DNA from: Agathobaculum sp. NTUH-O15-33
Lineage (GTDB): Bacteria; Bacillota; Clostridia; Oscillospirales; Butyricicoccaceae
Length of the DNA stretch: 64,000 nt
Direction of reading: 5' to 3'
Assembly: GCF_033193315.1 (NCBI RefSeq)
Contig: NZ_CP136187.1
Coordinates: 3,107,501 to 3,171,500 of the forward strand
Shown: positions 26,004-59,056 of the stretch, in pieces
Layout: each line of letters opens with the position of its first letter
Numbering within the stretch: position 1 is the first letter of the stretch
Position numbers and translations under genes: made by a program
Notes under the pieces: generated by a model
What the model was told of the DNA's origin: nothing
Database searches by the model: none
The model's input: only the letters and a program-made list of their open reading frames with translations

Positions 26004-26252
26004 ATGATGAATGAATCTTATTACTCGCTGCCCGAACTGCCCGAGGGCGGGCAGGCACGGGTGCGCGCTTTGCATTTAACGGGCGGCATGCGCCGCCGCC
26101 TGCAAGACCTTGGTCTGGTGGCGGGCACGCCGGTCACCTGTTTACAGCGCGCGGCCTCCGGCGACCCAACGGCGTATCTGATCCGCGGCGCGGTGATCGC
26201 CCTGCGGCAAACAGATGCTGAACAGGTCGAAATGGGGGTGGAGGACGCTTGA
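26004..26252 (+). CDS. feoA: FeoA, ferrous iron transport accessory protein
   Basis: 82 residues, SH3-like FeoA fold: ARVRALHLTGGMRRRLQDLGLVAGTPVTCLQRA...DPTAYLIRGAVIALRQTDAEQVEM. It assists FeoB. ATG 26004 follows GCGAGGGCTGAATCC; the open frame begins upstream at 25959 without a ribosome site. feoB starts with a TTG that overlaps the feoA stop (TTGA). Confidence 0.9.
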   Translation: MMNESYYSLPELPEGGQARVRALHLTGGMRRRLQDLGLVAGTPVTCLQRAASGDPTAYLIRGAVIALRQTDAEQVEMGVEDA

Positions 26253-27369
26253 ACGCCTCTACCAAAACGCCCGTGATCGCGCTGGCCGGTAACCCGAACG
26301 TTGGTAAGTCGACCGTTTTTAATTCATTGACCGGAAGTCACCAACACACGGGGAATTGGGCTGGCAAGACGGTGGTAAACGCGCACGGCTCGATGCGGTG
26401 CGGCGGCGAACGGCTTACCTTAGTCGATCTGCCCGGTACTTATTCCCTACGCGCCCGCTCGGAAGAGGAACGCGCCGCGCGCGATTTTCTTGTCAGCGGC
26501 GAACCGGACTGCACCGTGCTCGTGGCGGACGCCACCTGTCTGGAGCGCAACCTTATCCTTGTTTTGCAAGTGCTGGAAGTGACGCAAAACGTCGTTCTGT
26601 GCCTGAACCTAATGGATGAAGCGCGAAAAAAAGGCATCCAAATAGACGTACACGCGCTTCGGAACGAACTTGGCATACCCGTTATCCCCTGCGCGGCGCG
26701 GCGTGGGCAGGGCTTGCCGCAGCTACAACGGGCGGTGTGCCGCGCGCTGAGCGAGGGTGCGCCGGAAACCGTCGCCAACATCCGTTATCCGCGCCTGTTG
26801 GAGCAGGCCGCCACGGCGACCGGCTTACCGCGCGGCGCGGCGTTTGAGCGCCTGCTGGAAGCTCCGCCGGAGGGCATGACTGCCACCGAGGTAGACGACA
26901 TGCTGACCGCCTCCGCCGCGCTGCGCGCGGAAGAGATCGCCATGACCTGCGTACGAATTTCGCCCGCCGCCTACGAGCGCGACCGCCGCATCGACCGCGT
27001 GCTGCTCAGCCGCCGTTTCGGCGTGCCGCTGATGCTGCTTTTGCTCGCCGTTGTATTTTATATTACGCTGTTTGGCGCAAACATTCCCTCCGCGTGGTTG
27101 GGCGACCATTTACTTGCCCTGACCGAGCCGATCGCCGGTGCGCTGGCGGCCATTGGTCTGCCGCCTTTTATCGTTTCGCTGCTGGCGGATGGCGCGTGGC
27201 GCGTACTCGCCACCGTGGTATCCGTCATGCTGCCGCCTATGGCGATCTTCTTCCCCCTGTTTACCCTGCTGGAAGATGCGGGTTATCTCCCCCGCGTAGC
27301 CTTTCAGCTTGACCACGCCTTTCGCCGCGCGCACGCCTGCGGCAAGCAAAGTCTATCCATGTGCATGGG
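26249..27369 (+). pseudogene. feoB: FeoB ferrous iron transporter, 5' part, interrupted by a 26.5 kb element
   Basis: About 373 FeoB codons remain. G domain motifs: ALAGNPNVGKSTVFN (G1), VDLPGTYSL (G3), NLMDEARKKGI (G4). The first membrane segments follow, up to GYLPRVAFQLDHAFRRAHACGKQSLSMCMG. At 27362-27369 the sequence leaves FeoB and enters the integrated element; the frame runs on to 27880 as meaningless sequence antisense to the AbrB-like gene. The remaining membrane core resumes at 53832. Joining the two at TGCATGGG gives an in-frame gene of 1,944 bp. While the element is inserted Fe(II) uptake by this transporter should be lost. TTG start after GGAGGACGC. Confidence 0.93.
27357..27369. 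other. attL, left attachment site
   Basis: CCATGTGCATGGG here and CCATCTGCATGGG at 53819-53831 agree in 12 of 13 bases; the shared run TGCATGGG (27362-27369) is the probable crossover core. It lies in the FeoB codons for MCMG. Confidence 0.8.
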
Positions 27370-27415
27370 GCGAATAAGTTTGCAATTATTGGCGCGGCAT
27401 TCATGCAGTATAGAA

Positions 27416-39249: not shown

Positions 39250-39266
39250 GCTCTCACCCCCTTTCA

Positions 39267-39370
39267 ATCAGGTAGGAGTTAGGAGGTAGGAAGTAGAAGT
39301 TTTACGGCCAAAGGCCGCATTGGAATAACACGCTTTGCGCGTCTCCTTCACTCCTACCTCCTCACTCCTC
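39267..39370. repeat. TAGGAG-type hairpin repeat, copy 2
   Basis: AGGTAGGAGTTAGGAGGTAGGAAG and ACTCCTACCTCCTCACTCCTC form the arms; GCGGCC-like dyad ACGGCCAAAGGCCGC is inside. Same design as the copy at 36850. Confidence 0.65.
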
Positions 39371-39410
39371 CAGACTTGTTTCTTTAAGTAATTCGTGGTA
39401 TACTTGATAT

Positions 39411-39515
39411 TAGGGTAGGACTTATTTCGTAGGTACGTTGTGGATATTCTCCGCAACTGCCTGGTATGTTGCGGATATTCTCCGGGGCTGCCGTAGATTT
39501 GTCCTACTCTTTTTA
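39411..39515 (+). ncRNA. Small structured RNA candidate, family 1 unit A
   Basis: Promoter TTGTTT (39377-39382), 16 bp, TATACT (39399-39404). The predicted RNA is closed by GTAGGAC (39415-39421) with GTCCTAC (39501-39507), then TCTTTTTATTTATT. Inside are two hairpins: GTTGTGGA-TATTC-TCCGCAAC (39437-39457) and CGGA-TATTC-TCCG (39472-39484). No open reading frame with a ribosome site. Confidence 0.7.
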
Positions 39516-39585
39516 TTTATTCAAATTCACCAAGTTTCCATAGAGCTGGCTTGCTTTTTTTAACGGCTCGTGGTATACCCTATAT

Positions 39586-39691
39586 TAGGGTAGGCTCATC
39601 TCATAGGTATTCTGTGGATATTCTCCGCAGTTGCCGTGGTATGTTGCGGATATTCTTCGCGATTGCCGTAGATCTGTCCTACTCTTTTTTA
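39586..39691 (+). ncRNA. Small structured RNA candidate, family 1 unit B
   Basis: Promoter TTGCTT (39551-39556), 17 bp, TATACC (39574-39579). Closing stem GTAGG (39590-39594) with CCTAC (39678-39682), then TCTTTTTT. Hairpin 1 reads CTGTGGA-TATTC-TCCGCAG (39612-39630); relative to unit A a T-A pair has become C-G, a compensatory change. Hairpin 2 is GCGGA-TATTC-TTCGC. Confidence 0.7.
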
Positions 39692-39764
39692 TCGTCTTTC
39701 CTAAAACTACCATTCCCGTATCATTAGCTTGACGATATCCATGATCCTGCGTTATACTCTATCT

Positions 39765-39855
39765 AAGCAAAGCTGTCGGCGGACGGGTTGATTTGGTCGG
39801 TGTCATACGTGGTATGCTGCACCGGCGCCCGGTTACCGGTGGCTTTGCTTTTTTG
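39765..39855 (+). ncRNA. Small structured RNA candidate, family 2
   Basis: Promoter TTGACG (39729-39734), 18 bp, TATACT (39753-39758). Ends are joined by AGCAAAGC (39766-39773) with GCTTTGCT (39842-39849), followed by five or more T. Inside: hairpin CATAC-GTG-GTATG and a second stem CACCGG / CCGGTG. Sequence unrelated to family 1. Confidence 0.68.
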
Positions 39856-39937
39856 TGATCATATTCACATCCCCCATTTCAATGACTTTAGTACAAAATT
39901 AGTTGCTATTTTTAGCGCTAGCGTATATACTATAAGC

Positions 39938-40014
39938 AACAAGAGTATCGTCAGCGATCGCTTCAGGCAATTGGAGCCTGATTGAAAGAAGCTGGCTGAT
40001 GCTCTTGTTTTTTC
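39938..40014 (+). ncRNA. Small structured RNA candidate, family 3
   Basis: Promoter TTGCTA (39903-39908), 17 bp, TATACT (39926-39931). Closing stem ACAAGAG (39939-39945) with CTCTTGT (40002-40008), extended by several more pairs, then TTTTTT. Inside is the hairpin TCAGGC-AATTGGA-GCCTGA. The terminal TTGTTT (40005-40010) doubles as the -35 box of the next unit. Confidence 0.68.
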
Positions 40015-40039
40015 AAACGGCTCGTGGTATACTTCGTAT

Positions 40040-40149
40040 TAGGGTAGGACTTATTTCGTAGGTATGTTGTGGATATTCTCCGCAACTGTCTGGTATGTTG
40101 CGGATATTCTCCGCGATTGCCGTAGATTTGTCCTACTCTATTTTTATTT
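40040..40149 (+). ncRNA. Small structured RNA candidate, family 1 unit C
   Basis: Promoter TTGTTT (40005-40010), 17 bp, TATACT (40028-40033). Closing stem GTAGGAC (40044-40050) with GTCCTAC (40130-40136), then TCTATTTTTATTT. Contains hairpins GTTGTGGA-TATTC-TCCGCAAC and TTGCGGA-TATTC-TCCGCGA. About 90% identical to unit A. Confidence 0.7.
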
Positions 40150-40212
40150 ATCCAAAGCCAGTTCCCATCGATCTGGGTTGCTTTTTCAAACGGTTCATAG
40201 TATACTTGATAT

Positions 40213-40292
40213 TAGGGTAGGGCTCATCTCTTAGGTATGTTTCGGATATTCTCCGCAGCTGCCGTAGATCTGTCCTACTCTATTTTTATTTT
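40213..40292 (+). ncRNA. Small structured RNA candidate, family 1 unit D (one hairpin lost)
   Basis: Promoter TTGCTT (40178-40183), 17 bp, TATACT (40201-40206). Closing stem GTAGG (40217-40221) with CCTAC (40274-40278) and a T-rich tail. Only one inner hairpin remains, CGGA-TATTC-TCCG (40243-40255), as if the two were fused by deletion. Its 3' end overlaps the end of the opposite-strand polyvalent gene. Confidence 0.62.
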
Positions 40293-42624
40293 ATCTAATG
40301 CGTGGTAATAGTATCGATCTCCCTGCGGAACATTTTTGATGCTCAGTCTAACCGAATAGTGTCTGCCATCGACTGAAAAAGCACTGGTATAATAGGAGAA
40401 TGGATTTACCCGGCCTTTTACATTTTCGCTTTTTCCTGTAGGCTTCATATTCTCAATGATTTTATTGAGCAGCAACGCGCTTTCCGCATTGTCCTTGTTT
40501 TTAACGCCTGCGCCTCGAATCTTTTTTGCAAAATCATTGATGCCTGTTTGTGTAATGATAATTTGTTCATTGGTAGCCTTTACAGCAACAGGTTTTGCTT
40601 CCGTAACGGTAATCGTGTCCAGTGCGTACTTGGTATTCAGATTCAGTTCAGCAAAAGCCTTGATAAAGTCCCGGAAATCTTGCGGATCGACGCGCTCCAT
40701 GACCGGTATACCCATCAACACGCGTCCTTCATCGTTCACTGTATATTCTATTTCCGCCTGTAACGGAACTTCATAAAGTCGCTGCTGATCCTCCGATTGC
40801 AAATACATTTTGCCGTCCTCCATGTAGGTTCTTTCCTTCCATGAGGTTTTCACCGCAGCGGGATCAACGTCATACGCCGGCTCCTCCAGACTTGCTTTGA
40901 TCTTATCTTTCACCGTTGCGGCTTTTTCAATAAAGCCCGGCAGGAGTTCGTTTACCCTGTGCGCACCGTGATGCAGCGCCGTGCCGATCGCCGCGCCGCC
41001 AGCGGCGGACAGCATCCCGCCGAACGCAGATAATGCAACATCCTGCCACGACAGCTTCGCTTCCGGGTCGTTCGCCATCACATCCGCCGCATGGTTCAGA
41101 ACGGTAGAGGCCGCCTCCTCGGTTGCCTCCACGCCCATCTGCGTCAGAATATTCTTGATATAGCCCTTGCCGCCGGTCTTGACGATGTTCCACATCGTTT
41201 CGACCGGCATTTTTTCTGTCAGCACCTCGGTACCGCCCGCCAGCATCCCCCGCAGGGCCGCCTCTCCCGGTGCAAAGCCACGCCCGTTCAGCTCGTTTGT
41301 CTTTTGCGCCGCGGCCTTTGTGCCCATTGCGGCGAGCGGCAAAGCCGGATTGACCGCCGCCAGCGGCAGCGTTAACGTATTGTCGGCCAGTCCGATCGCC
41401 GTGCCGCCGAGAAAACGCTCCGCCCCGGATAGCCCCATCAAAGCGTTTTCCCGCTGCTGGGCCGCAAGGTTCATTTTCCGCGCGCCCCACGCATCTGGTG
41501 AAACCGGCGTTGTAACGGCCATTTCGCGGCGCTGTGCCTCGGCCTCCTGCAGGCGTTTGCGTTTTGTGTCGTATTCATGCACTGTTAACGGTATGCCGGT
41601 GGGAAGCGTGCCGGTTTGCTGATAGCGCTTCCACTGCTCGCCCGTCATACCGCCGTTTACATAGTAGTCCTCCGGCGAGTTTGCCGCCGCCGCACGAAGA
41701 TAGTCGTTGAGCGCGGCAATCTCGTTCTCCAACGTGCCATATGCGGGGTTTTTTCGGCTTTGCGCTGTGTTATCCGCCTGCTGCTGCGCCGTTTCGACTA
41801 ACACCGGCAGCGCGGCGACCGTCTCGTTATAAATGCTCCGCGCCGCGTTTCCAAATCGTCCGGACATGTCCGCCAACTGAGTGTCCAGCGGATTAACCCG
41901 CTGCCCAAGCGCTTGCTGATTTTTCACATAAGTACGAAACACCCCGGACGCTCTTTGCTGCTCTGCCCGCTCGTTTTGCGTCCACACCTCGTAGGGACGG
42001 CTGTACAGGTCGATCAGAACGGCACGCGCCGCGTCAGCCTCTGCATCCGTCACTCGTCCAAACGCTACCTCCCGAACGTTTCGGGGCGTATGCGCTTCAT
42101 TATACCGCGACAATGCATTTGCCGCGTTTTGCTGCCGCTCATATTCATCCAATGTCAGCCCCTGTACACCGGCGAACAGCATATGCATTTGCTGCGCCGG
42201 TTTTGGGGCTGTCATGAACTCCGAACCAGTTGCATGAAAGCGCTTGTCCAACGGCAATGGGCCTTGCGGCAAAAACGGTAAGCTCACCTGTGCGGTACGC
42301 GGTGTCTGCACCCGCGCGGGACGCGTCAAAGCCAGCCCCTGCCCCGCCGCATACGTCGCGGCCGGCGCGGCGGTAGGCCCGCCCGACGCATAACGAGATA
42401 CTGGCGCGTTTACCGTTCTCCCCCTCCCCGCCATAGGGGCGGGCTTTCCTTTTTGCGCGGGCTGCGCCTTTGGCAGCACAAGCGTCTTTACCATGGTCGC
42501 CGCAGGCGATACCCCGTTTTTTATATCCGCGCTGATCTGCGCCTGCACTGCCGCCAGCGCCCTTTTTTTTCTGTTCATCGTCCCGCAGCGCCGCCGTGGA
42601 AACGTAGCCGTTTTTGTTTGCCAA
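40275..42624 (-). pseudogene. Large polyvalent-type phage protein, frameshifted near the N-terminus
   Basis: ATG 42624 (MANKNGYVSTAALRDDEQ...) follows AAAGGGGTG, but the frame is lost at an A8 run (T8, 42563-42570). With one A fewer it reads DEQKKRALAAVQAQISADIKNGV and joins a 767-codon frame that ends at 40275. The body has long helical parts, a hydrophobic glycine-zipper stretch (LSAFGGMLSAAGGAAIGTALHHGA) and a C-terminal domain (SYYTSAFSVDGRHYSVRLSIKNVPQGDRYYYHAL) like the polyvalent-protein-associated domains of phages and conjugative elements. It sits between portal and scaffold, where podoviruses encode internal or minor head proteins. It may enter the host with DNA (inference). Confidence 0.72.
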
Positions 42625-42641: not shown

Positions 42642-42721
42642 TTAATTACCAATTAGTAGTTAGTAATTAGTAATTTCGGTCTCAGGCCGATTACCTTATT
42701 TTAATTACTAATTCCTAATTA
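42642..42721. repeat. TAATTAG-type hairpin repeat, copy 3
   Basis: TTAATTACCAATTAGTAGTTAG ... TTAATTACTAATTCCTAATTA arms flank a short dyad CGGTCTCAGGCCG. Its right end supplies the stop codon of the small zinc-ribbon gene, as copy 1 does for the capsid gene. Confidence 0.7.
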
Positions 42722-42832
42722 TTTCTCCACCGTCTTCCCATAAAGCGGACACTGCGGGTTGCGGCAGACCTGCACCGTCTTGCCGTCCCGTGTTTCCGCT
42801 CTGGTGTCGATCTCACAATGGGGACAAAGCAT
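42719..42832 (-). CDS. Tiny zinc-ribbon phage protein
   Basis: 37 residues with CPHC and CRNPQC, a four-cysteine zinc ribbon (MLCPHCEIDTRAETR...). GGAGGAAAC precedes ATG 42832. It overlaps the end of the portal gene by 20 bp. Similar micro-ribbons occur next to portal genes in Firmicutes prophages; role unknown. Confidence 0.65.
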   Translation of the reverse strand: MLCPHCEIDTRAETRDGKTVQVCRNPQCPLYGKTVEK

Positions 42833-44729
42833 GTCCGTTTCCTCCTTCCATGCCGCCCAGCGGCGTGTTCTGCTGGGGCGGGGCGGCCTGCGCCTTGCGC
42901 TGCTCCAGCTGCGTCAGCGTTTCCTTTGCGCCCGGGTAGTGCAGCAGGTCCATCTTCTGCCAGAACAGGATCAGCGTGTCCAGCTCCTGTGGGTTACCGA
43001 AGCAGCCCTCCTTCAGGTTCATGCGCGTTTCCTGCCACATGCCTTCGCGGTTGCCCGCGAGCGGCGCGGTCTGATCGACTGAGAATAGAAATTCATCGTT
43101 CCAGTACGGCTCGCCCGCCTCGTCGACTTCGAGGAAATCCCACCGGTCAAACACCGTGTAATCCGCGCCGCCGTCCGCCGCACGGGTCACCACCGGCCGG
43201 GGCTCGTCCGCATAAGCGAGCATAAATTTGAACATTACGTGAAACAACTCGGCATAGGCCGCGTTTTTCATCGTCCGCTTGCTCTCCAGCCGCCCCGCGG
43301 CCTGCGCCGCCGCGAACTCCTTGGCCTTGCCGCTCGTCGCCGTCGTGTCGCGGCGGCCCTGAAAAGAATCGGTCACGCCTATCAGGTTGCGCGCCGCCTG
43401 ATAGGTGCTTTCCTGATAGGCCATATCCTTGGAGATATCGCCCTGCAAGGTCAGCACATCGACCAGCGCCTTTTCCGCCGGGTCCTTGATTTCCAGTACC
43501 TTAAACTCCTCGTCCGTGCGGCGGATGTGCTTGCCCTGCGGCAGCGTGACGACCGAGCCGCCCATCATCAGCTTTTCGCTGATCTTGGTGCCGATCTTGT
43601 TGATCTCGTTTTGCTGGTCGGCAATCTTGTCCACGTCGGAATCGCCCAGAAACTGCCCAAACACGCTTACATTGCGCCGCATCACGATCGGGTAAACGCC
43701 GGGCTTGTAGTACGGCACGACCGTGCGCACCGCTTCGCTCTCGCGAAGCGCGTTGCCCTGATCGTCCAGCGTCACCTGCTCCTGCATACGCAGGGCGGGC
43801 AGCACGCCCTCGCCGAGGGGCAAGTCCTGTTCCAGCGTCTGCCCCTCATCCACCGTCTCGTCATATTTGCGGCCGCCGCAATAGGCGCAGGTATCGCCCA
43901 TCGGCTGGCCGCATTTTACACACCGCTTGACGCGCCGCGCCTGATAATCCTCCATGTATTCGAGCAGCACGTCGTTCACCCAGCTCACCCGGCCGATACC
44001 GCCCGACGGCCCCCGGAAATAGGCGATATTCTGCGTTACCACATCGTCCACGGTCTCCGCGTCGAACGCGCGGCTCTCGGGCCGCTCCTCGCCCTCCCCC
44101 GCCACATCCGCGCCGTATTTCGCGCGGATATACGCCTTGGTTTGCGCCAGCTGCAAAAAGCAGTAGTCCATATCGCGAATCTCGCTCACGCCCGGCTGCG
44201 GAATGAACTGCTTGGGATGGATGAGCGTGACCGACAGCCCGCCCGCCGTTGTGTGCGTATGCGCACCGCTGTCCCACTCGACCAAGAACAGATCGCCGCC
44301 CTGAATGGGCGTGGTGCGCTCATCCTGATCGTTTAAAGTCTCAAACGGCAGGCGGTCTATTTCGCCGCGCAGCATGTTTTCGATCAGCGCGGCCCGCGCT
44401 TCGTCCCGCCTGTATCGCGGCGCGACCTTGGGGCTGGGGATATCGCTCGATACCTGCGCCTCGATGATCTCGGCCACGATATTGCGCGTCACGCCCGCTT
44501 TCTTCACCCGGCCCGCAAACGCGCTGTTCGCGCCACGGTCGATCTCGCGGCTGCCGCGGTACATCGCGTCGCGCCGGTCCATGCGCGCCAGCACGCTTTC
44601 ATACGCCGTCTTGGCTTTATCCAGCCGCGCCTGCCAAAGCGCCAGCAGCGCCCGATCCCCTAGGCTGCTCCGTCTTTCCTTATCCTTTTTCAAAAAACCG
44701 CCTCCGTTTCTTTCTTTTCTCCTGCTCAC
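42813..44729 (-). CDS. Phage portal protein
   Basis: 638 residues from GTG 44729, which overlaps the terminase stop by 4 bp (GTGA); ATG 44747 is an alternative. Features: ...NIVAEIIEAQVSSDIPSPKVAPRYR, IDRLPFETLNDQDERTTPIQGGDLFLVEWD, HPKQFIPQPGV, a four-cysteine insert (CVKCGQPMGDTCAYCGG), and KIADQQNEINKIGTKISEKLMMGG. The ring of portals forms the DNA gate of the head. Position directly after the large terminase supports the call. Confidence 0.87.
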   Translation of the reverse strand: MSRRKERNGGGFLKKDKERRSSLGDRALLALWQARLDKAKTAYESVLARMDRRDAMYRGSREIDRGANSAFAGRVKKAGVTRNIVAEIIEAQVSSDIPSPKVAPRYRRDEARAALIENMLRGEIDRLPFETLNDQDERTTPIQGGDLFLVEWDSGAHTHTTAGGLSVTLIHPKQFIPQPGVSEIRDMDYCFLQLAQTKAYIRAKYGADVAGEGEERPESRAFDAETVDDVVTQNIAYFRGPSGGIGRVSWVNDVLLEYMEDYQARRVKRCVKCGQPMGDTCAYCGGRKYDETVDEGQTLEQDLPLGEGVLPALRMQEQVTLDDQGNALRESEAVRTVVPYYKPGVYPIVMRRNVSVFGQFLGDSDVDKIADQQNEINKIGTKISEKLMMGGSVVTLPQGKHIRRTDEEFKVLEIKDPAEKALVDVLTLQGDISKDMAYQESTYQAARNLIGVTDSFQGRRDTTATSGKAKEFAAAQAAGRLESKRTMKNAAYAELFHVMFKFMLAYADEPRPVVTRAADGGADYTVFDRWDFLEVDEAGEPYWNDEFLFSVDQTAPLAGNREGMWQETRMNLKEGCFGNPQELDTLILFWQKMDLLHYPGAKETLTQLEQRKAQAAPPQQNTPLGGMEGGNGHALSPL

Positions 44730-46204
44730 CAAACCGGCTCGCCCCATTTGCGGATTAAATACGCGCGGCCCGCCTCGCCGGCGTTTTCATAGTCGTCGTA
44801 CTGGTCGCGCGTCCATGTTACGCCCGCGGCGCGCGGAGCTTCCGCCGGGTGCGTCCAGTACACGCAAAAGCAGCGCAGGCTGTCCACATCGTGCGTCAGG
44901 GCGTGCGGTTCCTTGGCATACACATTGGGCCGCGCCTTGTCGCGCTGTATGCGCGATAGGCAGCGGAACAGGTTTTCAGCCGCGCCTTCGCAAAGCGTCA
45001 GGCCGCCGTCCCGCAGCCATTCCTTGATCGCCGCGCACCCGGCGGGCAGGTCGTTCGATGTTTTCGTCAGCACCGCCCCGTGCTCGGCAAAAATCGCGGC
45101 CCGGCTTTTGCCCGATTCCTGCGAGCGGCTCCATAGGTCGGGCGGCGCGAGCATTTGCTCAATCCTTTCACCCGCGGACAACTCGCGCAGCTTTGCCGCC
45201 GCCTCGCCGATGGTCAGGTCCGGCGCGTCAAACTCTCGGTACACCGCCGCCCGGTTTTCGGGCGAGACCGCCACCCAATGCGCCGAAAACATATCCAGCC
45301 CGTAATCGATACACACATACCGCCGCCAGCCCTCCATATCAGGCGCGGCGCGCACATGCGTGTGCCGTTTTACCTCCGGGAAGAACGCGCCGCCGGGTAT
45401 GGTGAGCGCTTCCTCCGGCGTGGCCGGGTACTCCTGCATAATCAGGTCGCCCAAATCCCGCCGCGTCTGCTCGTACCATGCCGCGTCCCGCCGGGGGTCG
45501 GCGTACCACGGGATGAACAGCTTGTGAAACCCGTTGTCCTCCGTGTACAGCTCCTCGAACAGCGTGCCGCGTTCGATGGTGGACAGCCCCAGCACCCGGC
45601 CGCCCGTGGGCCGGTTGATCGTCGGGTAAGCGGAAAGCCAGATTTCGCGCGCGTTCTCCTGAAAGGCCCATTCGTCCAGCAACAGCAGATTAGCCGTGAA
45701 CGACCGCCCCGCGCCGCCCGCCGAAGCAAAGGCGCGGAAAGCAGATTTTTGCCCGCTCGGAAACGTGATCGTTACCGATAGCACGGTATGCGAATAGGTC
45801 GGCCCGCCCCAGTTCGCCGCGCCGTCCTCCCGCACCAGCTCAGGCATGTTTTTCAGTTCCACCGCCCACAGCCGCCGCACCAGTTCCTTGGCCTCTTCCT
45901 CGGTGCGGGACAGCGCGATACAGGTGTGCCCCTCGCAAAACAACAGCTCGTGCAGCGCCGCCGAAAGCGCCAGCCATGTAATGCCGAGCTGCCGCGCCTT
46001 TAGGATGATCGTCAGCCGGTTCGATAGTATTTCCGATAGCGCCTCGCGCTGCATGGGCCACAGCCGGAACGGCTGAATGATCTCGGCGGCGTCCTTATCC
46101 TCGATGTGACAGTATGTCTCGATAAAGTAATGCGCGTTCGCGCGGCAGTGCGCCCATTCGCCCTCTCTCACGCGGTGCAGGGCGTCGCGTTCAGCCGTGT
46201 CCAC
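44726..46204 (-). CDS. Terminase large subunit
   Basis: 492 residues from GTG 46204, overlapping the small terminase end by 14 bp. ATPase: a degenerate Walker A region, LKARQLGITWLALSAALHEL, and LLLLDEWAFQ as Walker B. Nuclease-like C-terminal half: VCIDYGLDMFSAHWVAV. It pumps DNA into the head and cuts concatemers. The start is chosen because the frame upstream is R/C-rich noise antisense to real signal and the site GGAAGAGC precedes GTG. Confidence 0.93.
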   Translation of the reverse strand: MDTAERDALHRVREGEWAHCRANAHYFIETYCHIEDKDAAEIIQPFRLWPMQREALSEILSNRLTIILKARQLGITWLALSAALHELLFCEGHTCIALSRTEEEAKELVRRLWAVELKNMPELVREDGAANWGGPTYSHTVLSVTITFPSGQKSAFRAFASAGGAGRSFTANLLLLDEWAFQENAREIWLSAYPTINRPTGGRVLGLSTIERGTLFEELYTEDNGFHKLFIPWYADPRRDAAWYEQTRRDLGDLIMQEYPATPEEALTIPGGAFFPEVKRHTHVRAAPDMEGWRRYVCIDYGLDMFSAHWVAVSPENRAAVYREFDAPDLTIGEAAAKLRELSAGERIEQMLAPPDLWSRSQESGKSRAAIFAEHGAVLTKTSNDLPAGCAAIKEWLRDGGLTLCEGAAENLFRCLSRIQRDKARPNVYAKEPHALTHDVDSLRCFCVYWTHPAEAPRAAGVTWTRDQYDDYENAGEAGRAYLIRKWGEPVW

Positions 46205-46433
46205 CGCGCTCTTCCGCGCCGGATACGCCGAGCCGCCGCGCGACCTTGTGCAGCAGCGCACGGTCGGCCTCGGAAAGCGCGCCCTCGGTCGGCTGTGTCT
46301 CCCGCGCTGCCTTGGCCCACAATTCGGACGCCCGGATGCGGTCGGCCGTCTTTTCATCCTCACTGCGGACAATGCGCATCCAAAAGTCGCTGACCTCGCG
46401 CATATCCGCCGTTTTATCCTGCAAATTCCCCAT
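46191..46433 (-). CDS. Terminase small subunit-like protein
   Basis: 80 residues from ATG 46433 (MGNLQDKTADMREVSDFWMRIVRSEDEKTADRIRASELWAKAARE...), after AAGGAAGAGG. The helical RIRASELWAKA segment is typical of short terminase small subunits, which recognise phage DNA. It directly precedes the large subunit. Confidence 0.78.
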   Translation of the reverse strand: MGNLQDKTADMREVSDFWMRIVRSEDEKTADRIRASELWAKAARETQPTEGALSEADRALLHKVARRLGVSGAEERGGHG

Positions 46434-46449
46434 TTTATCCTCTTCCTTT

Positions 46450-46599
46450 TTACGTAGTTTCCGTATTTTCTTTGCCGCAAACCAGTTCCTCCAGTACGCG
46501 CCGCACGGTATCCGGCAGCGTGCGCTTCTCCATATACGCTGCAAGATCGTCGCATACACGCCCATCCGCCATCACGTTTACGATTACCGGCTCGTCCAT
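46450..46599 (-). CDS. Small phage protein before the terminase genes
   Basis: 49 residues (MDEPVIVNVMADGRVCDDLAAYMEKRT...). Strong site GGGAGGTGG before ATG 46599. First gene of the packaging/late operon. No known domain. Confidence 0.6.
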   Translation of the reverse strand: MDEPVIVNVMADGRVCDDLAAYMEKRTLPDTVRRVLEELVCGKENTETT

Positions 46600-46734
46600 T
46601 CGCGCCACCTCCCGCACATTCTATGCCGCGGCGGCTCGTCCTCTTGCCAAGTCCGGTTTATCGTACAGGTAATGCGGTATGATAGTGCTGTAACCAAAAA
46701 CCACCCCAATCTTTTCGGTTTCCCTTGACAAGTA

Positions 46735-46865
46735 CGTTATCGAGTATTACCATAAGAGTGTCATCAGTGTTAATACTCGGCTGAGTACTTTTCTCATTCT
46801 CATAATAGTACTGCGCCAAGTATAAGTCAACGTAAATTTACTCTATCAAGAAATTTTAGTATACT
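46735..46865. promoter_or_regulatory. Phage genetic switch: divergent promoters and operators
   Basis: Rightward repressor promoter TTTACT (46837-46842), 17 bp, TATACT (46860-46865). Leftward promoter (minus strand) TTGACT (46830-46825), 17 bp, TATTAT (46807-46802), reading toward the terminase genes. A perfect 9-bp dyad CGAGTATTA / TAATACTCG (46741-46779) and further GAGTACT half-sites lie downstream of the leftward promoter. Another TTGACA is at 46735. Fits a lysogeny switch run by the adjacent repressor. Confidence 0.65.
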
Positions 46866-46888
46866 TGTACAACAAAGGACGGGGTATT

Positions 46889-47278
46889 ATGAGCACTTTG
46901 TATGAAACAATCGAGCATCTTTGCCTGTCTCAAGGCATTAACGCGACCAAGCTGTGCAAAAGCATCGGCATCAGCCGCGGCATCCTCACCGATCTGAAAA
47001 TGGGCCGCAAAAAGACGCTGGCAGTCGATACGCTTTCCAAGATCGCTTATTATTTCGGCGTGTCCGTAGAATATTTGCTCAGCGGTGGGCAAACAGAAAA
47101 ACCGGGCGCTGAAAGCGGCCCGGCGATTGGGATGGACGATTTTACCTATGCGATGCATCACGAATCCAAAAAGCTGACCGACGCGGATAAGGAGCTTTTG
47201 CTCCGCATGGCGCGCCAGCTCAACGACGCAAGGCAAGCGAGGCGAAAAAACAATGGAGGAACTGACAAAACTGTATAG
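46889..47278 (+). CDS. Phage repressor, Cro/C1-type HTH
   Basis: 129 residues. HTH: LCLSQGINATKLCKSIGISRGILTDLKMGRKKTLAVDTLSKIAYYFGVSVEYLLSG. The C-terminal part is short and charged with no LexA-type protease, so inactivation by the ImmA-like peptidase encoded next is likely. ATG 46889 after AGGACGGGG. Overlaps the ImmA gene by 26 bp. Confidence 0.9.
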   Translation: MSTLYETIEHLCLSQGINATKLCKSIGISRGILTDLKMGRKKTLAVDTLSKIAYYFGVSVEYLLSGGQTEKPGAESGPAIGMDDFTYAMHHESKKLTDADKELLLRMARQLNDARQARRKNNGGTDKTV

Positions 47279-47690
47279 ACGCCTGTACGACGGCGGACAT
47301 TTCCTGTTTGACGGCGCATTCGCCTTTTCGGACGAGAGCGTCAAATCCTCGGTGGTAGAGGTAGGCGGGGACTATGGCGTGTTTCTGGATTCCGGCCGCG
47401 TGGACGGCGCGGCCGAGGAAGCCGAGCTCATCGCGCACGAGTGCGGCCATATTGAAACCGGCACCACGCACGCGGTGTACAGCCCCTTTGAACTGGTCGC
47501 CCAGCACGAAAACCGGGCCAACAAATGGGCCGTGCACGAACTTTTACCGCGCGAGGAATTGCAGCGCGCGATCCGCGCGGGCTGCACCGAACCGTGGGAG
47601 CTGGCCGAGTTTTTGGGCCGCACCGAGCAGTTCATCCGCTTGGCGGTACAAATCTACGAAAAAGAAAAAACGCCCGAAGCAGTAAACTGA
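47253..47690 (+). CDS. ImmA/IrrE-family metallopeptidase
   Basis: 145 residues. Zinc motif HECGH (AEEAELIAHECGHIETG) with a downstream ENRANKWA segment, typical of ImmA/DUF955. In ICEBs1 and related elements ImmA cuts the paired ImmR repressor after a host signal; the overlap with the repressor gene supports the same pairing. The last codons double as the left arm of the terminator hairpin. Confidence 0.9.
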   Translation: MEELTKLYRRLYDGGHFLFDGAFAFSDESVKSSVVEVGGDYGVFLDSGRVDGAAEEAELIAHECGHIETGTTHAVYSPFELVAQHENRANKWAVHELLPREELQRAIRAGCTEPWELAEFLGRTEQFIRLAVQIYEKEKTPEAVN

Positions 47691-47998
47691 ACTGCTTCGG
47701 GCGTTTAGCTTATCAAAGAACCCCTCGCGCCGCAGCGCGCATGAAATAGAATTTTGCCGTTTACGGCAAAATTCACAAAAACCGGGAGCAGAAGGTGAAT
47801 TGGCCGTAGGCCAAGAGAGGCCGGCCTGGGCCGTGTATCTCGGTTTTTTTACAAACCGACTTCAAGTGTGCCAGTAAGGCGCGCGCAGAAGCCGGAATTC
47901 TCGATCGAAATGGGGCTTTGTTTCGATCGACAGGCTGTCAAAACTTGTTTTTTGACAGCCTGCGCCCGAAGCAGTAAACTGAACTGCTTCGGGCGTTT
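47671..47998. repeat. Hairpin repeat, copy 2, with duplicated terminator at both ends
   Basis: The 36-bp terminator CGCCCGAAGCAGTAAACTGA... (stem ACGCCCGAAGCAG/CTGCTTCGGGCGT) occurs at 47671-47706 and again at 47963-47998. Between them is a 256-bp block with several hairpins, including GAATTTTGCCGT/ACGGCAAAATTC, GGCCGTAGGCC, and the GATCGAAA..TTTCGATC and TGTCAAAA..TTTTGACA stems shared with the copy at 13374-13720. No gene. Confidence 0.75.
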
Positions 47999-51656: not shown

Positions 51657-53312
51657 TCATTCTTCCCGATATTTTTTCTCCAGCCGATCAACAATATCTT
51701 GCTCGTAATCATTTGCCTTGGACCAGTATTCCTGCGCTTTTTCATCGGATATGCTTTCGATACCCGTGATCTCACCCACTCCATCTCGGATTGCCGCTAG
51801 ATTCACGGTTCCGGCCGCATCCGTCCATAGCGTTCCAAACCAGCCGTCTTCGAGCTGGTCAACAAACGATTTCACCCGCTGCCCATTGTAGTACAGCGCC
51901 TCATCCGCTTCAGAATAGGTGACGCCGAACGGCTGATATTGCTCGTATTTATTCGGGCCAACCGTGACGTTTTCTTGAACTGTTACACGGTCTTGCACAT
52001 TTGCAAAGCGTTCATCCGCAAAGAAAGCATCTTGATAGGCCTGCGCCTTTTGCGCGGAAATGCTCTGAATCCCCGTGATCTGACCGGCGCCATTCCTAAC
52101 GGCCGACAAATTTGCATGCCCGGCTTCATTTAAATAGAAAGCCTCGGCATCCGATCCATCGTCTGCAAACAGCCGCACAGGCTGCCCGTCATACAGCAGT
52201 TTTGTGCCATCCTCCGAGATCGTGATCCCGAAAGCGGCGTATGCGGCATAAACATCGGGATTTGGCAGAAAGGAAACAGCGGTCGAAGGGGCAAATGCCG
52301 TACTTTGATTTTTGCCCGCCGGTGGGATCTGCGTTTTCGCATTTGTAGCAAACGCACCCCCTGTTCCCAGCGTGAGTACCAGCGCGCCGCAGAGGACCGC
52401 AAGGCCAGATTTCTTTTTGCTCATATCCATAATGGAAAAGATTCTTTGTTTCATACCCTTCTTGCCTCCATAAAAATGCGTGGATAAAGCGGTTTTTCGC
52501 TTCGATCGGTATCGAACCACGCTGATAATCGTTTCGCTGTAATATTGGCGGGTTTCCGCGTCCGTGCCGCGCACAACTTCCTCGTCGCAGGACGCTTCGC
52601 ATTGAACGCCGATCGCATTTGTCATCAGGTAAACAATGGGATTAAACCAGTGAATCGCGGTCGCGAGCAGAATCAGGCATTTATACCAAAGGTCTTTCCG
52701 CTTGTCATGCACTAGCTCGTGCTTTAGGATCAAGCGGAGTTCCTCCTTTGCAAAGTCTGCTTTCGGCAACAGGATCCGGGGTCTGATAAACCCTATCATC
52801 ATAGGGCCGCCGATGCTGTCACAAATCTGCAAGCGGAGATCGCGGGATACCCCCATTTCCTTTTTTAAATTTTGAAACAGCGCCAGTGTCTGTTCATCTG
52901 TTACGTTTACGCTCCAACGCGCCGCCAGCTTGGAAAAGCGCACATGCTTGATCGCATGATAAACAAGAAATACGAGCATACCTGCGAGCCATATCGCCGC
53001 CGCGGCCTGCCACCATGCGAGATGCGAAAAAGTAGAAGAAAGCGCGGGTTCCGCGGGTACGGCAACCGGCGCCCTGTTGCCGATTTGTATCGTAGTCGCA
53101 GCCGCCTGACCCGGCATATTAACTTTGACAACGGCATTGTGGAAACGCGGCCGAAAAGGGATCACCAGCCCCGCCACCAGAACCAGCCATGCGTAATACC
53201 GGCCCGTTGCGGAATAACGCTTTGCAAGCAGCGGCGTGAGCGCCATATAAAACAGCGCAAGCGCCGACATGGTGACGGAGCATACCAAAAGCATAATCAT
53301 CAAGCTCCGCAA
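51657..53312 (-). CDS. BlaR1-like M56 metallopeptidase sensor without a penicillin-binding domain
   Basis: 551 residues from a TTG (53312) two bases after the BlaI stop, with AAGGGGGG 7 nt upstream. Four membrane segments enclose the zinc peptidase motif HELVHDKRKDLWYK and a downstream CEASCDEEVV. BlaR1 proteins cut BlaI on sensing a beta-lactam through a C-terminal transpeptidase-like domain; here that domain is absent. Instead there are two related repeats of about 70 residues (FGITISEDGTKLLYDGQPVRLF... and FGVTYSEADEALYYNGQRVKSF..., each ending ITGI-SIS-KAQ). The signal is therefore probably something else. Confidence 0.87.
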   Translation of the reverse strand: MRSLMIMLLVCSVTMSALALFYMALTPLLAKRYSATGRYYAWLVLVAGLVIPFRPRFHNAVVKVNMPGQAAATTIQIGNRAPVAVPAEPALSSTFSHLAWWQAAAAIWLAGMLVFLVYHAIKHVRFSKLAARWSVNVTDEQTLALFQNLKKEMGVSRDLRLQICDSIGGPMMIGFIRPRILLPKADFAKEELRLILKHELVHDKRKDLWYKCLILLATAIHWFNPIVYLMTNAIGVQCEASCDEEVVRGTDAETRQYYSETIISVVRYRSKRKTALSTHFYGGKKGMKQRIFSIMDMSKKKSGLAVLCGALVLTLGTGGAFATNAKTQIPPAGKNQSTAFAPSTAVSFLPNPDVYAAYAAFGITISEDGTKLLYDGQPVRLFADDGSDAEAFYLNEAGHANLSAVRNGAGQITGIQSISAQKAQAYQDAFFADERFANVQDRVTVQENVTVGPNKYEQYQPFGVTYSEADEALYYNGQRVKSFVDQLEDGWFGTLWTDAAGTVNLAAIRDGVGEITGIESISDEKAQEYWSKANDYEQDIVDRLEKKYREE

Positions 53313-53313
53313 G

Positions 53314-53694
53314 CTAATCCCCCCTTCGCTCTTTCGCCCACTGTAACAATTCGTCGATATCCCGGTCCGACAGCGCTTCATCGTCGTACAAGGTATTGAT
53401 CAAATTGAAAAGCGAGCTGTCGTGATACTGCTTCATAAAGTTCCCGGTTTCAAATTTTAGGTATTCCTCCTTGCTCACCAACGGGTAGTAGGAGCGTTCC
53501 TTTCCGTGTTTTTCGGAACGCAGAAAACCGCGCTCGACAAGCCGCAGCATTAAGGAAACGACCGTTTGTATTTTCCACTCTTTTTCTTTCCCTAATTGCT
53601 CCATGATGATCGACGTGGTCAAAGGCGGTTCATTTGCCCATACCACTTTCATGATGTCAAATTCCGCGTCCGGCAGCTTTTTTATCCGTTCCAT
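53314..53694 (-). CDS. BlaI/MecI/CopY-family repressor
   Basis: 126 residues. Winged helix: LPDAEFDIMKVVWANEPPLTTSIIMEQLGKEKEWKIQTVVSLMLRLVERGFLRSEKHGKERSYYPLVSKEEYL. Expected to be cleaved by the co-encoded BlaR1-like peptidase. The operator dyad overlaps its own promoter, so the pair is autoregulated. No beta-lactamase gene is nearby. Confidence 0.92.
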   Translation of the reverse strand: MERIKKLPDAEFDIMKVVWANEPPLTTSIIMEQLGKEKEWKIQTVVSLMLRLVERGFLRSEKHGKERSYYPLVSKEEYLKFETGNFMKQYHDSSLFNLINTLYDDEALSDRDIDELLQWAKERRGD

Positions 53695-53818: not shown

Positions 53819-53831
53819 CCATCTGCATGGG
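53819..53831. other. attR, right attachment site
   Basis: CCATCTGCATGGG, matching attL at 27357-27369 in 12 of 13 bases. FeoB coding sequence resumes at once (FGCNACGVVGC). Confidence 0.8.
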
Positions 53832-54654
53832 CTTCGGCTGCAACGCTTGCGGCGTGGTGGGTTGCAGAATCATCGATTCTCCGCGCGAACGCATGATCGC
53901 CATGCTGACCAACGCCTTCGCGCCGTGCAACGGACGCTTTCCTTTGCTGATTTTCCTGTGTTCCGTTTTCTTTGCGGGCAACGCGCTCACCGGCTCGCTG
54001 CTGCTTACCGGGGTTTTGGTGTTCAGCGTGGTGCTGACGCTCGCCGCGTCCCGCCTGCTCTCCGCCACGGTTTTAAAGGGCCTTCCCTCTTCCTTCGCGC
54101 TTGAGCTGCCGCCCTACCGCGCGCCGCAGCTCGGCAAGGTGATCGTCCGCTCTATTTTCGACCGCACGCTGTTCGTGCTTGCGCGCGCCGTCGCGGTCGC
54201 CGCGCCGGCCGGCCTCATCATCTTTCTGCTAGCAAATATCACCGTGGGCGATACCTCGATCCTAAACCATATCGCCGCGGCGCTCGACCCCTTTGGGCAG
54301 CTGCTCGGCATGGACGGTGTGATCCTGCTTGCTTTTATCCTCGGCTTTCCCGCAAACGAGCTGGTCATGCCGCTGATCGTGATGGGCTACCTTGCCACCG
54401 GCACGATAGCCGACGTGGCCGATCTGGGCGCGTTTCGCGATCTGCTGCTCGCCAACGGCTGGACGATCACGACCGCGCTGTGCACGCTCGTTTTCGCCGT
54501 CGCGCACTGGCCGTGTTCCACCACCTGCCTTACCATTTACCGAGAAAGCCGCAGCGTCAAATGGACGCTTGCCTCTATCGCGCTGCCCACCCTGTTCGGT
54601 TTTGTGCTATGCTTCGCCATCAACCTTGCCTGTCACGCCCTCGGCGTCGGGTAA
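53832..54654 (+). pseudogene. feoB: FeoB ferrous iron transporter, 3' part
   Basis: About 274 codons of the FeoB membrane core: FGCNACGVVGCRIIDSPRERMIAMLTNAFAPCNGRFPLL, later GFPANELVMPLIVMGYL and HWPCSTTCLTIYRES. These continue exactly where the 5' part stops at 27369. The frame is open back to a TTG at 53773 but there is no ribosome site, so the fragment is probably not translated while the element is in place. A terminator follows. Confidence 0.92.
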
Positions 54655-54986: not shown

Positions 54987-55433
54987 CTATGAAGCGCCGT
55001 TTTGTTCCGCGGCGCCTCGGGTAAAGCCTAAGTACCGCGTACCCTGAAACTTCAGCATGCCCTCATCCTGTTCAACCAACATGCCGTATTCCCGCCCGCT
55101 GACGCTAAACTCCATCCGGTCCCCGCTTGTGACCTCGAAGGTGACGTAATAATCGGTCGAGCTGGTCGTGTGATCCATCCCCATATTGTCCGCGTCGTGA
55201 TGGTGGCGAATGTTCACATCCGTCCGCCGGGAAACCACCTTTGCTCGTACCTCTAAGATGGGCGATTGGTTGTTCTCATGCCATTGCTTGGCCCCGCGCA
55301 CCGCCGCGACCACGAAAATGCCAATCACCACGACGAATGTCAGGATCACTATGGTCGGCACAATCGAAAACATGCCCCGTTCCATCGAGCTCATGCCGAA
55401 GCCGTTTAAGTCAAAATCATTCCCTACATACAT
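54987..55433 (-). CDS. DUF2500 membrane protein, last gene of the retron-like operon
   Basis: 148 residues. One N-terminal membrane helix (MFSIVPTIVILTFVVVIGIFVVAAV) and a DUF2500 beta domain (VRAKVVSRRTDVN ... YYVTFEVTSGDRMEFSVSGREYGMLVEQDEGMLKFQGTRYLGF). DUF2500 proteins are common and uncharacterised. ATG 55433 is 4 bp after the reverse transcriptase stop, with AAAAGGGGGG overlapping that stop, so they are co-translated. Membrane proteins serve as effectors in some retrons; that role here is inference. Confidence 0.87.
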   Translation of the reverse strand: MYVGNDFDLNGFGMSSMERGMFSIVPTIVILTFVVVIGIFVVAAVRGAKQWHENNQSPILEVRAKVVSRRTDVNIRHHHDADNMGMDHTTSSTDYYVTFEVTSGDRMEFSVSGREYGMLVEQDEGMLKFQGTRYLGFTRGAAEQNGAS

Positions 55434-55437
55434 TGCT

Positions 55438-56364
55438 TTACCCCCCTTTTGTCTGCTGACTAATCCATTCTTTGCAGTCTATCGCGTCCCGATTAGCAGG
55501 ATCGGCCAGAAGGATAAAATTCGCCTTGCCCGCAAGGCTTCGCAAATACGCTTCCACGGAAAGCGCGCTTTCCGTGCGCCTCAAATGCTCCTCCACGCCA
55601 AACCGGCGGCAGTAATACAGCTCTTGCCGCAGTGCGCGGCGATATGCGGCGGGCGTGCGCATTTTCTCATTCACGGTAAGGCCGGTCACGGCCTGCCGCT
55701 GCCCCGCGTTCATGCGTTTGGTTTTGGCTTCATTTAATAAAAAGCCGCGTTTCCGCAGCGCGGCGGCGGCAAATTCCCGCACCCCCTCAAGCGATCCATC
55801 GCCGGAAAAGGTCATGTCATCGCAGTAGCGCGTATAACGGATCGCCCGCTTTGCGCAGTACGCGCCCATTTCCTCGTCAAACTCGCGCAGGATCAGATTT
55901 GCGATCCATGGCGAAGTCGGCGCCCCCTGCGGCAGCGCGTCCCGGTAGTAGCAAAGCATGGCAAGCAGCACGCGCAGCGGTTCGGCATAGGTATCCGCCG
56001 GAAAGGCCGCGTCCTTCACCTGCCGGTACAGCACACTGTCGAAAAATCGACAAATATCGAGCTTTAGCACCGTCCGCCTGCCCACATGCGGGCGGGCGTT
56101 TTTGATGATACCGCCGCCAAACCGGTACGCCGTCGCATAGGGCGATATCGGCATGCGGCACAGCAGCGTCCCCGCGATACGGCGCTGCACGCATTTCAGC
56201 GTTTCATCCGGCAGGGCCAGCAGCCGTACGCCGCCATCCCGTTTGGGTATTTGTGCCATGCGGTAGTGCGCGTCCAATCGGTTGCTCACCGCGTACAGCG
56301 TTTGCAGCCGCAGCCCTAAATCACGCGAAAGGGTGGAAGCCTCACAGTAAATGATCCGATCCAA
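55438..56364 (-). CDS. Retron-type reverse transcriptase
   Basis: 308 residues from TTG 56364, preceded by AAAGGGGGG; this length suits retron enzymes. RT motifs in order: AQIPKRDGGVRLLALPDETLKCVQRRI, SPYATAYRFGGGI, LKLDICRFFDSV, LPQGAPTSPWIANLILREFD, and the catalytic RYCDDMTFSG. Near the C-terminus ...QAVTGLTVNEKM matches the VTG region that marks retron RTs. It would copy part of the upstream RNA into multicopy single-stranded DNA joined to RNA. The open frame extends further upstream through the RNA gene but with no support. Confidence 0.88.
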   Translation of the reverse strand: MDRIIYCEASTLSRDLGLRLQTLYAVSNRLDAHYRMAQIPKRDGGVRLLALPDETLKCVQRRIAGTLLCRMPISPYATAYRFGGGIIKNARPHVGRRTVLKLDICRFFDSVLYRQVKDAAFPADTYAEPLRVLLAMLCYYRDALPQGAPTSPWIANLILREFDEEMGAYCAKRAIRYTRYCDDMTFSGDGSLEGVREFAAAALRKRGFLLNEAKTKRMNAGQRQAVTGLTVNEKMRTPAAYRRALRQELYYCRRFGVEEHLRRTESALSVEAYLRSLAGKANFILLADPANRDAIDCKEWISQQTKGG

Positions 56365-56392
56365 AGCAAGGCCCCCCTTTCCCTTTCCCGGC

Positions 56393-56561
56393 GGAACAAA
56401 ACAAAGTGCATGGCGAAACGCGGCGCGGTATGGGATTGCACACAGCGTGTGCCGATATACCGTGGCGCGGCTTCGGCTGAGCGAAGCGAATACGGTTGTA
56501 TTTGCGAACCGGCGGCGACTCGCCGCCGGCGCCGGTAAAGCCGGACGATCGCTTTTGTTCC
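56393..56561 (-). ncRNA. Candidate retron msr-msd RNA
   Basis: On the minus strand GGAACAAAA (56561-56553) and TTTTGTTCC (56401-56393) are perfect 9-nt inverted repeats, the arrangement of retron a1 and a2. Right after a1 comes AGCGA, where branching guanosines usually lie. Inside are the GC-rich dyad CCGGCGGCGA/TCGCCGCCGG and, nearer a2, CGGTAT-atcg-GCACAC-gct-GTGTGC-aatccc-ATACCG (56462-56426), a plausible msd stem. RT starts about 29 nt downstream. Confidence 0.6.
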
Positions 56562-56603
56562 TCAAAGCCATTGTAACCGATGGCGCGCCGTCCTGCAACT
56601 CTT

Positions 56604-58769: not shown

Positions 58770-58792
58770 AGAAATGTTATATAGGAAAACTG

Positions 58793-59056
58793 CGATGAAC
58801 AGGGAAAGTAGCGTCTTTCCCCTCTTTTCAGAGAAGGCGGCCTTTGGCTGTGAACCGCCGAAAGAGATTTGACGCGAAGTTCCCCTGCGAGCACCGGCGC
58901 TGAACCATTTTCAGTAGGCGCAGGCGATTTGACGCCCCGTTATCGGCGTTCAATGAGGGCCCGGCCATGCCGGGAATCAGGGTGGTACCACGGAATGCGT
59001 ATGCTGCGCCTTTCGTCCCTATTTTTACGGGACGAAAGGCGTTTTTTTCATCCCGG
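58793..59056 (+). ncRNA. T-box riboswitch, probably tRNA-Phe
   Basis: The leader has GATGAACAGGGAAAGTAG (stem I base), a specifier region with GAAGTTCCCC (TTC, Phe), and the T-box AGGGTGGTACCACGG (58978-58992). A terminator stem CGCCTTTCGTCCC / GGGACGAAAGGCG with a seven-T tail ends it (59027-59054). Uncharged tRNA-Phe should favour read-through into pheS. Confidence 0.95.

Follow-up and report, generated by a model that had tools for sequence, protein, structure and literature searches.

Why does a prophage carry a row of small structured RNA units on the strand opposite its head genes? The question is raised by a 64,000-nt stretch of Agathobaculum sp. NTUH-O15-33 (GCF_033193315.1; NZ_CP136187.1, positions 3,107,501-3,171,500), referred to below as the window, whose positions serve as unit coordinates. 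Six such units lie on the plus strand between 39.38 and 40.29 kb, among phage head genes on the minus strand. Related loci suggest an answer. Behind LPD3, MuF_C and some PBECR3 domains of phage polyvalent proteins there is a short gene, tail to tail on the opposite strand. This gene has a predicted promoter of its own and a predicted RNA of about 55-100 nt that is closed by pairing of both ends and has a T tract. The toxin domain and the RNA are exchanged together. The unit type follows the toxin-like domain (LPD3 for D, PBECR3 for E, MuF_C for F), and the array probably consists of genes for RNA antitoxins (RNA immunity), namely the present RNA and orphans of displaced toxin domains.

An array of six structured RNA units

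The units and the reading frames that touch them are as follows.

39412-39510, plus strand: RNA unit A, two hairpins and a T-rich end; LPD3-type (D) family, putative orphan
39586-39681, plus strand: RNA unit B, two hairpins
39765-39850, plus strand: RNA unit E, orphan in the window, toxin-adjacent (PBECR3) in genome G060
39939-40008, plus strand: RNA unit F, MuF_C-type with an AATTGG loop, orphan in the window
40040-40140, plus strand: RNA unit C, two hairpins
40213-40282, plus strand: RNA unit D, with a single hairpin and a T tract reaching about 40292, overlapping the end of the LPD3 gene convergently
40275-42578, minus strand: polyvalent-type phage gene ending in LPD3, 767 aa
40308-40598, minus strand: LPD3 domain (PF18798), predicted toxin domain by profile match and structure model
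39268-39456, minus strand: open reading frame (ORF) of 62 aa, TTG start
39788-39985, plus strand: ORF of 65 aa, TTG start, spanning parts of E and F

Units A, B, C and D form one family, from which E and F differ. Seven cores like GGATATTCTYCGC are located at 39442, 39473, 39616, 39648, 40071, 40102 and 40244, two each in A, B and C and one in D, as the preliminary description had counted them. With 2 mismatches allowed the core occurs 11 times in the window against 3.0 expected, and 0/100 shuffles reach 11. All six units fold better than their dinucleotide shuffles, with z-scores of -6.7 (A), -4.3 (B), -3.6 (E), -4.8 (F), -8.1 (C) and -5.4 (D). The positions and folding scores bear out the six consecutive structured units of that description, which also rightly placed them against the late operon, the minus strand carrying portal, terminase and capsid genes. 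The compensatory pair that it cited between A and B is real (UA in two sequences, CG in one), but as one pair among 39 in a set of three sequences it is weak alone.

The only ORFs of at least 60 aa that touch the array are the two short frames, neither of which matches any RNA unit, and the end of the LPD3 gene. A scan of the window with Rfam release 15 placed no family at the gathering threshold in the array; the matches in the window, a T-box and a SAM riboswitch, are both outside it. The idea of a dedicated RNA island outside described RNA classes is thus supported.

Each unit is preceded by a candidate promoter.

39376-39404, plus strand: promoter of A, TTGTTT-17-TATACT
39551-39579, plus strand: promoter of B, TTGCTT and TATACC, weak, missed by the script
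39729-39758, plus strand: promoter of E, TTGACG-18-TATACT, conserved in G060
39903-39931, plus strand: promoter of F, TTGCTA-17-TATACT
40005-40033, plus strand: promoter of C, TTGTTT-17-TATACT, overlapping the T tract of F
40178-40206, plus strand: promoter of D, TTGCTT-17-TATACT

The promoters of A, C and D read TTGYTT-17-TATACT, and B has TATACC. The -35 boxes of A-D fit TTGACA poorly (3/6), and a generic promoter scan of the array strand finds E and F as the only units. Its 3 sites against 2.4 expected are not above chance, so the letters of the window by themselves would be no proof of transcription. The case for real promoters rests on the relatives of the array.

RNA genes at the ends of toxin-like domains

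Domain ends were scanned from -90 to +260 for an RNA gene with a promoter score of at least 8/13, a closing stem and a T tract; the promoter and stem thresholds were fixed after the first loci had been seen. The LPD3 set, drawn from 291 genomes of the class, comprised 26 places, among them the window, 6 rows below the curated cut-off and three copies in one genome (L069, L073, L074). A predicted RNA gene is antisense at 20 of the 26 ends and sense at none, and shifted windows gave 0-3 of 24-26 antisense and 0-2 sense. When two of the copies were dropped, the count was 18/24 antisense versus 0.96 expected from dinucleotide shuffles. Five of the six misses (L050, L052, L057, L061, L064) look positive by eye and are unscored; L067 is negative. 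At the L064 end two tandem RNA structures stand behind one promoter and resemble the single RNAs of L071 and L072.

The MuF_C set of 8 places from 196 genomes gave the same picture, with 7/8 ends antisense and 0/8 sense, a shuffle expectation of 0.55, and shifted windows of 5-8 places holding 0-1 antisense and 0-2 sense. One of the seven (L081) is a poor candidate, and the single miss (L078) has an RNA by eye. PBECR3 ends have an RNA gene at 4/28 places (L091, L094, L095, L104) versus 1.4 in shuffles, which is no higher than in upstream shifted windows (1-5 of 28); the count is low because most PBECR3 places are stand-alone proteins without an RNA. Two RNAs come after PBECR3 in locus L022, which a different search had found. 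ART-PolyVal ends gave 0/12 versus 0.31 in shuffles (12 of 13 places, one piece of a two-piece domain being omitted), and the 11 PBECR4 places gave 1 weak candidate. Mixed RNA arrays are present in L058, L050 and L095. A search of 32 related loci against Rfam returned, at the gathering threshold, rRNA and tRNA alone among 20 of the loci and no family among the other 12.

Strong promoters are predicted at many loci. A codon test for selection on the DNA covered 27 loci with a scored RNA, L060, L073, L074 and L081 being left out. The toxin frame is open to the -35 box in 25/27 loci, in one shared phase in 24 of the 25, and the -35 box is a perfect TTGACA in 20 of them. The Val codon opposite the -35 box is GTC in 22/23 cases versus 141/1202 in the same ORFs. 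The scan demands some promoter match, so part of this bias is case choice; yet a -35 match of only 2/6 is needed. A recurring peptide resembling I-x-Q-x(4)-V-K/N in many polyvalent ORFs (e.g., L071, L059, L095) is the antisense reading of a TTGACA/TATAAT-type promoter.

MuF_C-type RNAs in distant elements

Unit F is present in 6/60 related genomes searched, its own counted. In G003, G007 and G022 it lies antisense within ORFs of 2,140, 2,418 and 2,209 aa, directly past MuF_C (PF18819); G003 has a second copy ahead of MuF_C, and the contexts in G027 and G031 are less clear. The preliminary description had held that homologues consisting of degraded coding sequence would speak against RNA genes. 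This point needs care, because the relatives of F are open frame on the other strand, the RNA genes lying antisense inside toxin genes. Seven F sequences support a hairpin in which 8/26 pairs have both partners changed in one sequence or more, and the same letters are also protein-coding there.

A tblastn search with the MuF_C domain returned 13 coliphage records, and an antisense RNA was found in 10/10 of those fetched. Further MuF_C-type RNAs are located on an Acinetobacter plasmid (script-positive) and an Opitutaceae plasmid (by eye). The type recurs in coliphage, Acinetobacter, Desulfobacterota and Verrucomicrobia elements with its loop conserved. Most of the 24 assembled RNAs are modeled with an outer stem and an inner hairpin centered on AAUUGG, whose loop is in many cases 7 nt long; L095c, phi367 and TAV5 have no such inner hairpin in the minimum-energy model. 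Over 20 rows the inner hairpin has 8 double-change cells versus 3.1 expected (0/500). For 31 non-redundant RNAs, out of 47 whose flanks were complete, the outer stems score a mean of 12.4 versus 8.0 with exchanged partners (0/200).

A search by the 19-nt RNA core alone found 48 places in 34 genome and 13 viral stretches, from records labeled as Clostridia and kin, Syntrophus, Smithella, Geotalea, Desulfobulbaceae, other delta-type groups, and beta- and gammaproteobacteria. Of the 48, 29 have a MuF_C match that ends there on the other strand; 23 of these are strong (E ≤5e-11, 13 viral), and the 6 weak ones include a match whose domain E is 4.9. The MuF_C profile takes in the LQLP end, and the weak matches may rest on LQLP.

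Joint exchange of toxin domain and RNA

Coliphage loci L135, L136 and L137 delimit the exchanged stretch. The L135/L137 pair has 0.97-1.0 identity just upstream and 0.95-1.0 just downstream of the differing stretch, and 0.37-0.58 between 503 ahead of the MuF_C end and about 37 past it, an interval that corresponds to the domain plus the RNA. Identity over MuF_C and the RNA is 0.35-0.62 in L135/L137 and L136/L137, and L135/L136 differ there in just the last 200 bases of MuF_C and the RNA (0.73-0.82). All pairs have about 0.95-1.0 identity on both near sides of the differing stretch; a separate difference lies about 1 kb upstream. By our own count, 5/12 outer-stem pairs have both partners changed when L135 is compared with L136, and one pair is lost. 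The coliphage toxin domain and its RNA differ together.

A swap is also seen within the species of the window. The prophage of G060 has 99.2% identity to the window over 42708-47706 and 97.9% over 40936-42101, and its polyvalent gene ends in PBECR3 (PF18812, E 4.7e-9) in place of LPD3. Its array runs from an A-like unit through a new unit G and a D-like unit that lacks a good promoter to E, which overlaps the end of the PBECR3-bearing gene. The two copies of E have three substitutions in the RNA, and similarity fades past the terminator. By this comparison predicted unit E is toxin-adjacent in G060 and an orphan in the window. PBECR3-type RNAs (L045 9393-9465, L022, L025, L091, L094, L095) have by eye a common CGTYTYGGACG-like hairpin, and unit G looks like an orphan of such an RNA.

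Unit D overlaps, tail to tail, the 3' end of the LPD3 gene. A D-like RNA (32.3 bits, E 7.7e-5) lies at the end of a related LPD3 gene in G106, a genome of another genus. The 767-aa protein is a likely virion-region product, judging by the neighboring genes, and its residues ~240-537 are related to the long MuF_C-bearing proteins of G003, G007 and G022. The model of LPD3 (mean pLDDT 76.7) has helices in 103-135 and strands at 138-143, 153-162, 165-174 and 186-192. Its best structural matches are contact-dependent inhibition (CDI) and RelE-family toxins (RelE/CdiA-toxin-like), with modest Z scores.

Proposed mechanism and alternatives

In the mechanism that we favor, the RNA would be made in the lysogen and its inner hairpin would bind and block the cognate toxin domain in a type III-like manner, perhaps as a substrate mimic. 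When the phage injects the protein, cells without the RNA would be harmed and lysogens making it spared. A new toxin domain would replace the old one and the old RNA gene would stay. Units D (current LPD3), C, F (MuF_C), E (PBECR3), B and A would then be the present RNA and the orphans of former toxins, and the orphans could protect against phages that still carry those toxins. The sequence of units leading away from the gene (D, C, F, E, B, A) agrees, we infer, with one swap after another. Several features suit an RNA with the toxin protein as its target: it is convergent and has its own promoter, its inner hairpin is shared within a toxin family, its outer stem is variable and paired, it is exchanged jointly with the toxin, and orphans stand in rows.

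A wider proposal, to which we give an even chance, is that these loci represent a general, unrecognized class of RNA immunity. Predicted RNase toxin domains of phages and related elements in several phyla would be neutralized by cognate structured RNAs encoded convergently at the toxin gene or antisense within it, and toxin and RNA would be traded as one cassette. The toxin would recognize the inner hairpin, perhaps as a substrate mimic, and leftover tandem RNA genes would form a heritable record that immunizes the lysogen against the toxins of other phages.

The main alternative is cis-antisense control of a type I-like kind, in which pairing of the convergent RNA with the 3' part of the toxin mRNA, or a collision of the two transcription events, would silence the toxin in the lysogen. 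The antisense position at the end of the toxin gene and the many strong promoters suit this explanation, and convergent 3' overlap is known in prophage type I systems such as SR6/yonT (PMC5848175). We consider it unlikely. The RNAs fold and stop after about 55-100 nt, with a conserved loop and covarying stems across distant elements; orphans A, B, C, E and F have no target at that place; and domain and RNA are swapped jointly, though any antisense would serve.

That the RNA instead serves the polyvalent protein as a cofactor or travels with it as a passenger, for example as bound cargo of the virion or as a folding aid, is improbable. Its position and domain specificity suit any protein-RNA partnership and the protein's probable place in the virion region agrees, but the keeping of orphan RNAs after domain loss is harder to explain. 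Least probable are palindromic recombination sites that mark the borders of exchangeable domains and act as DNA in swapping: the elements do lie at swap borders, and in G003 on both sides of MuF_C, but the promoter and T tract are asymmetric and on one strand only, GTC is favored opposite the -35 box, the stems vary between loci where a shared site sequence would be expected, and the RNA itself is within the exchanged stretch.

Other features of the window

The SAM riboswitch and T-box leader are at 2568-2680 and 58786-59023. A feoB-like gene lies in two same-strand parts (26087-27370 and 53821-54627) and appears to be interrupted by the inserted prophage region, within which a BlaR1-type M56 peptidase gene lies at 51657-53381. 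Outside the feoB interval, a reverse transcriptase (PF00078) and an adjoining small ORF at 54987-56598 are possibly a diversity-generating retroelement. A short MITE-like element with 18-nt inverted repeats (39260-39369) has an 81% copy in the G060 polyvalent gene (L045 11549-11656), where ~600 bases are missing.

Comparison with known systems

The toxin-like genes described here are of the kind termed polyvalent proteins of phages and conjugative elements (PMC5512222). The sections of that paper drawn on here predict MuF-C and PBECR to be RNases and attribute the reshuffling of toxin domains to an unspecified conflict; they name no RNA partner of polyvalent proteins, and 'noncoding RNA' has 0 occurrences in them. 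An immunity protein has been proposed for MuF toxins (PMC5576092). No RNA antidote for MuF, PBECR or LPD3 toxins appears in the accessible portions of open-licence literature that includes PMC5576092, PMC5512222, PMC12197685 and PMC4104026. An RNA antidote at the toxin-domain end would explain both the sparing of the producing cell and the rapid reshuffling of domains. Antisense transcripts within large phage genes could then be RNA genes, toxin domains would be findable by their RNA, the toxin-RNA pairs would be available for direct test, and orphan arrays might record earlier conflicts among phages.

In type III toxin-antitoxin systems (ToxIN, CptIN, TenpIN) the gene of the RNA antitoxin precedes the toxin gene on the same strand, the toxin has a ToxN/MazF-like fold, and the RNA binds and inhibits the toxin protein. 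The loci described here resemble them in a predicted RNase-type toxin, a small structured RNA proposed to bind it, and tandem RNA units. They differ in the placement of the RNA gene, which has its own promoter, comes after the toxin and converges on it, in many cases from within the toxin ORF on the opposite strand; the sense strand had none at the 26 LPD3 and 8 MuF_C ends.

Type I toxins are mostly small hydrophobic peptides and the RNA pairs with the mRNA; RatA/TxpA and RalA/RalR have type I antitoxins with 3' overlap in prophages. The RNA-linked domains here belong for the most part to ORFs that are hundreds to thousands of residues long. The convergent small RNA over the 3' end of a prophage toxin gene is shared with 3'-overlap antitoxins such as SR6/yonT (PMC5848175), and the conserved covarying folds and target-less orphans are the difference. 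At the 3' end of the toxin gene the RNA is antisense to its transcript, which does not hold for orphans A, B, C, E and F of the window.

CsrB and RsmZ are sponge RNAs with repeated hairpins, a feature shared by A-C. The guess of a protein-binding decoy in the preliminary description comes nearest to the antitoxin reading, but identical repeats in the CsrB/RsmZ manner are no general principle, because E, F and same-position RNAs elsewhere have other hairpins.

Polymorphic toxins (CDI, Rhs, MuF) have leftover immunity genes in a row. Their antidote gene comes right after an exchangeable C-terminal toxin domain, as does the candidate antidote here, which differs in being an RNA on the opposite strand. 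The short ORFs match none of the units and the units fold as RNAs, which argues against a protein antidote encoded by them; no search for an immunity protein elsewhere was made. The adjacency, joint exchange and arrays of the polymorphic-toxin module are all seen in these loci, with the RNA as the putative antidote.
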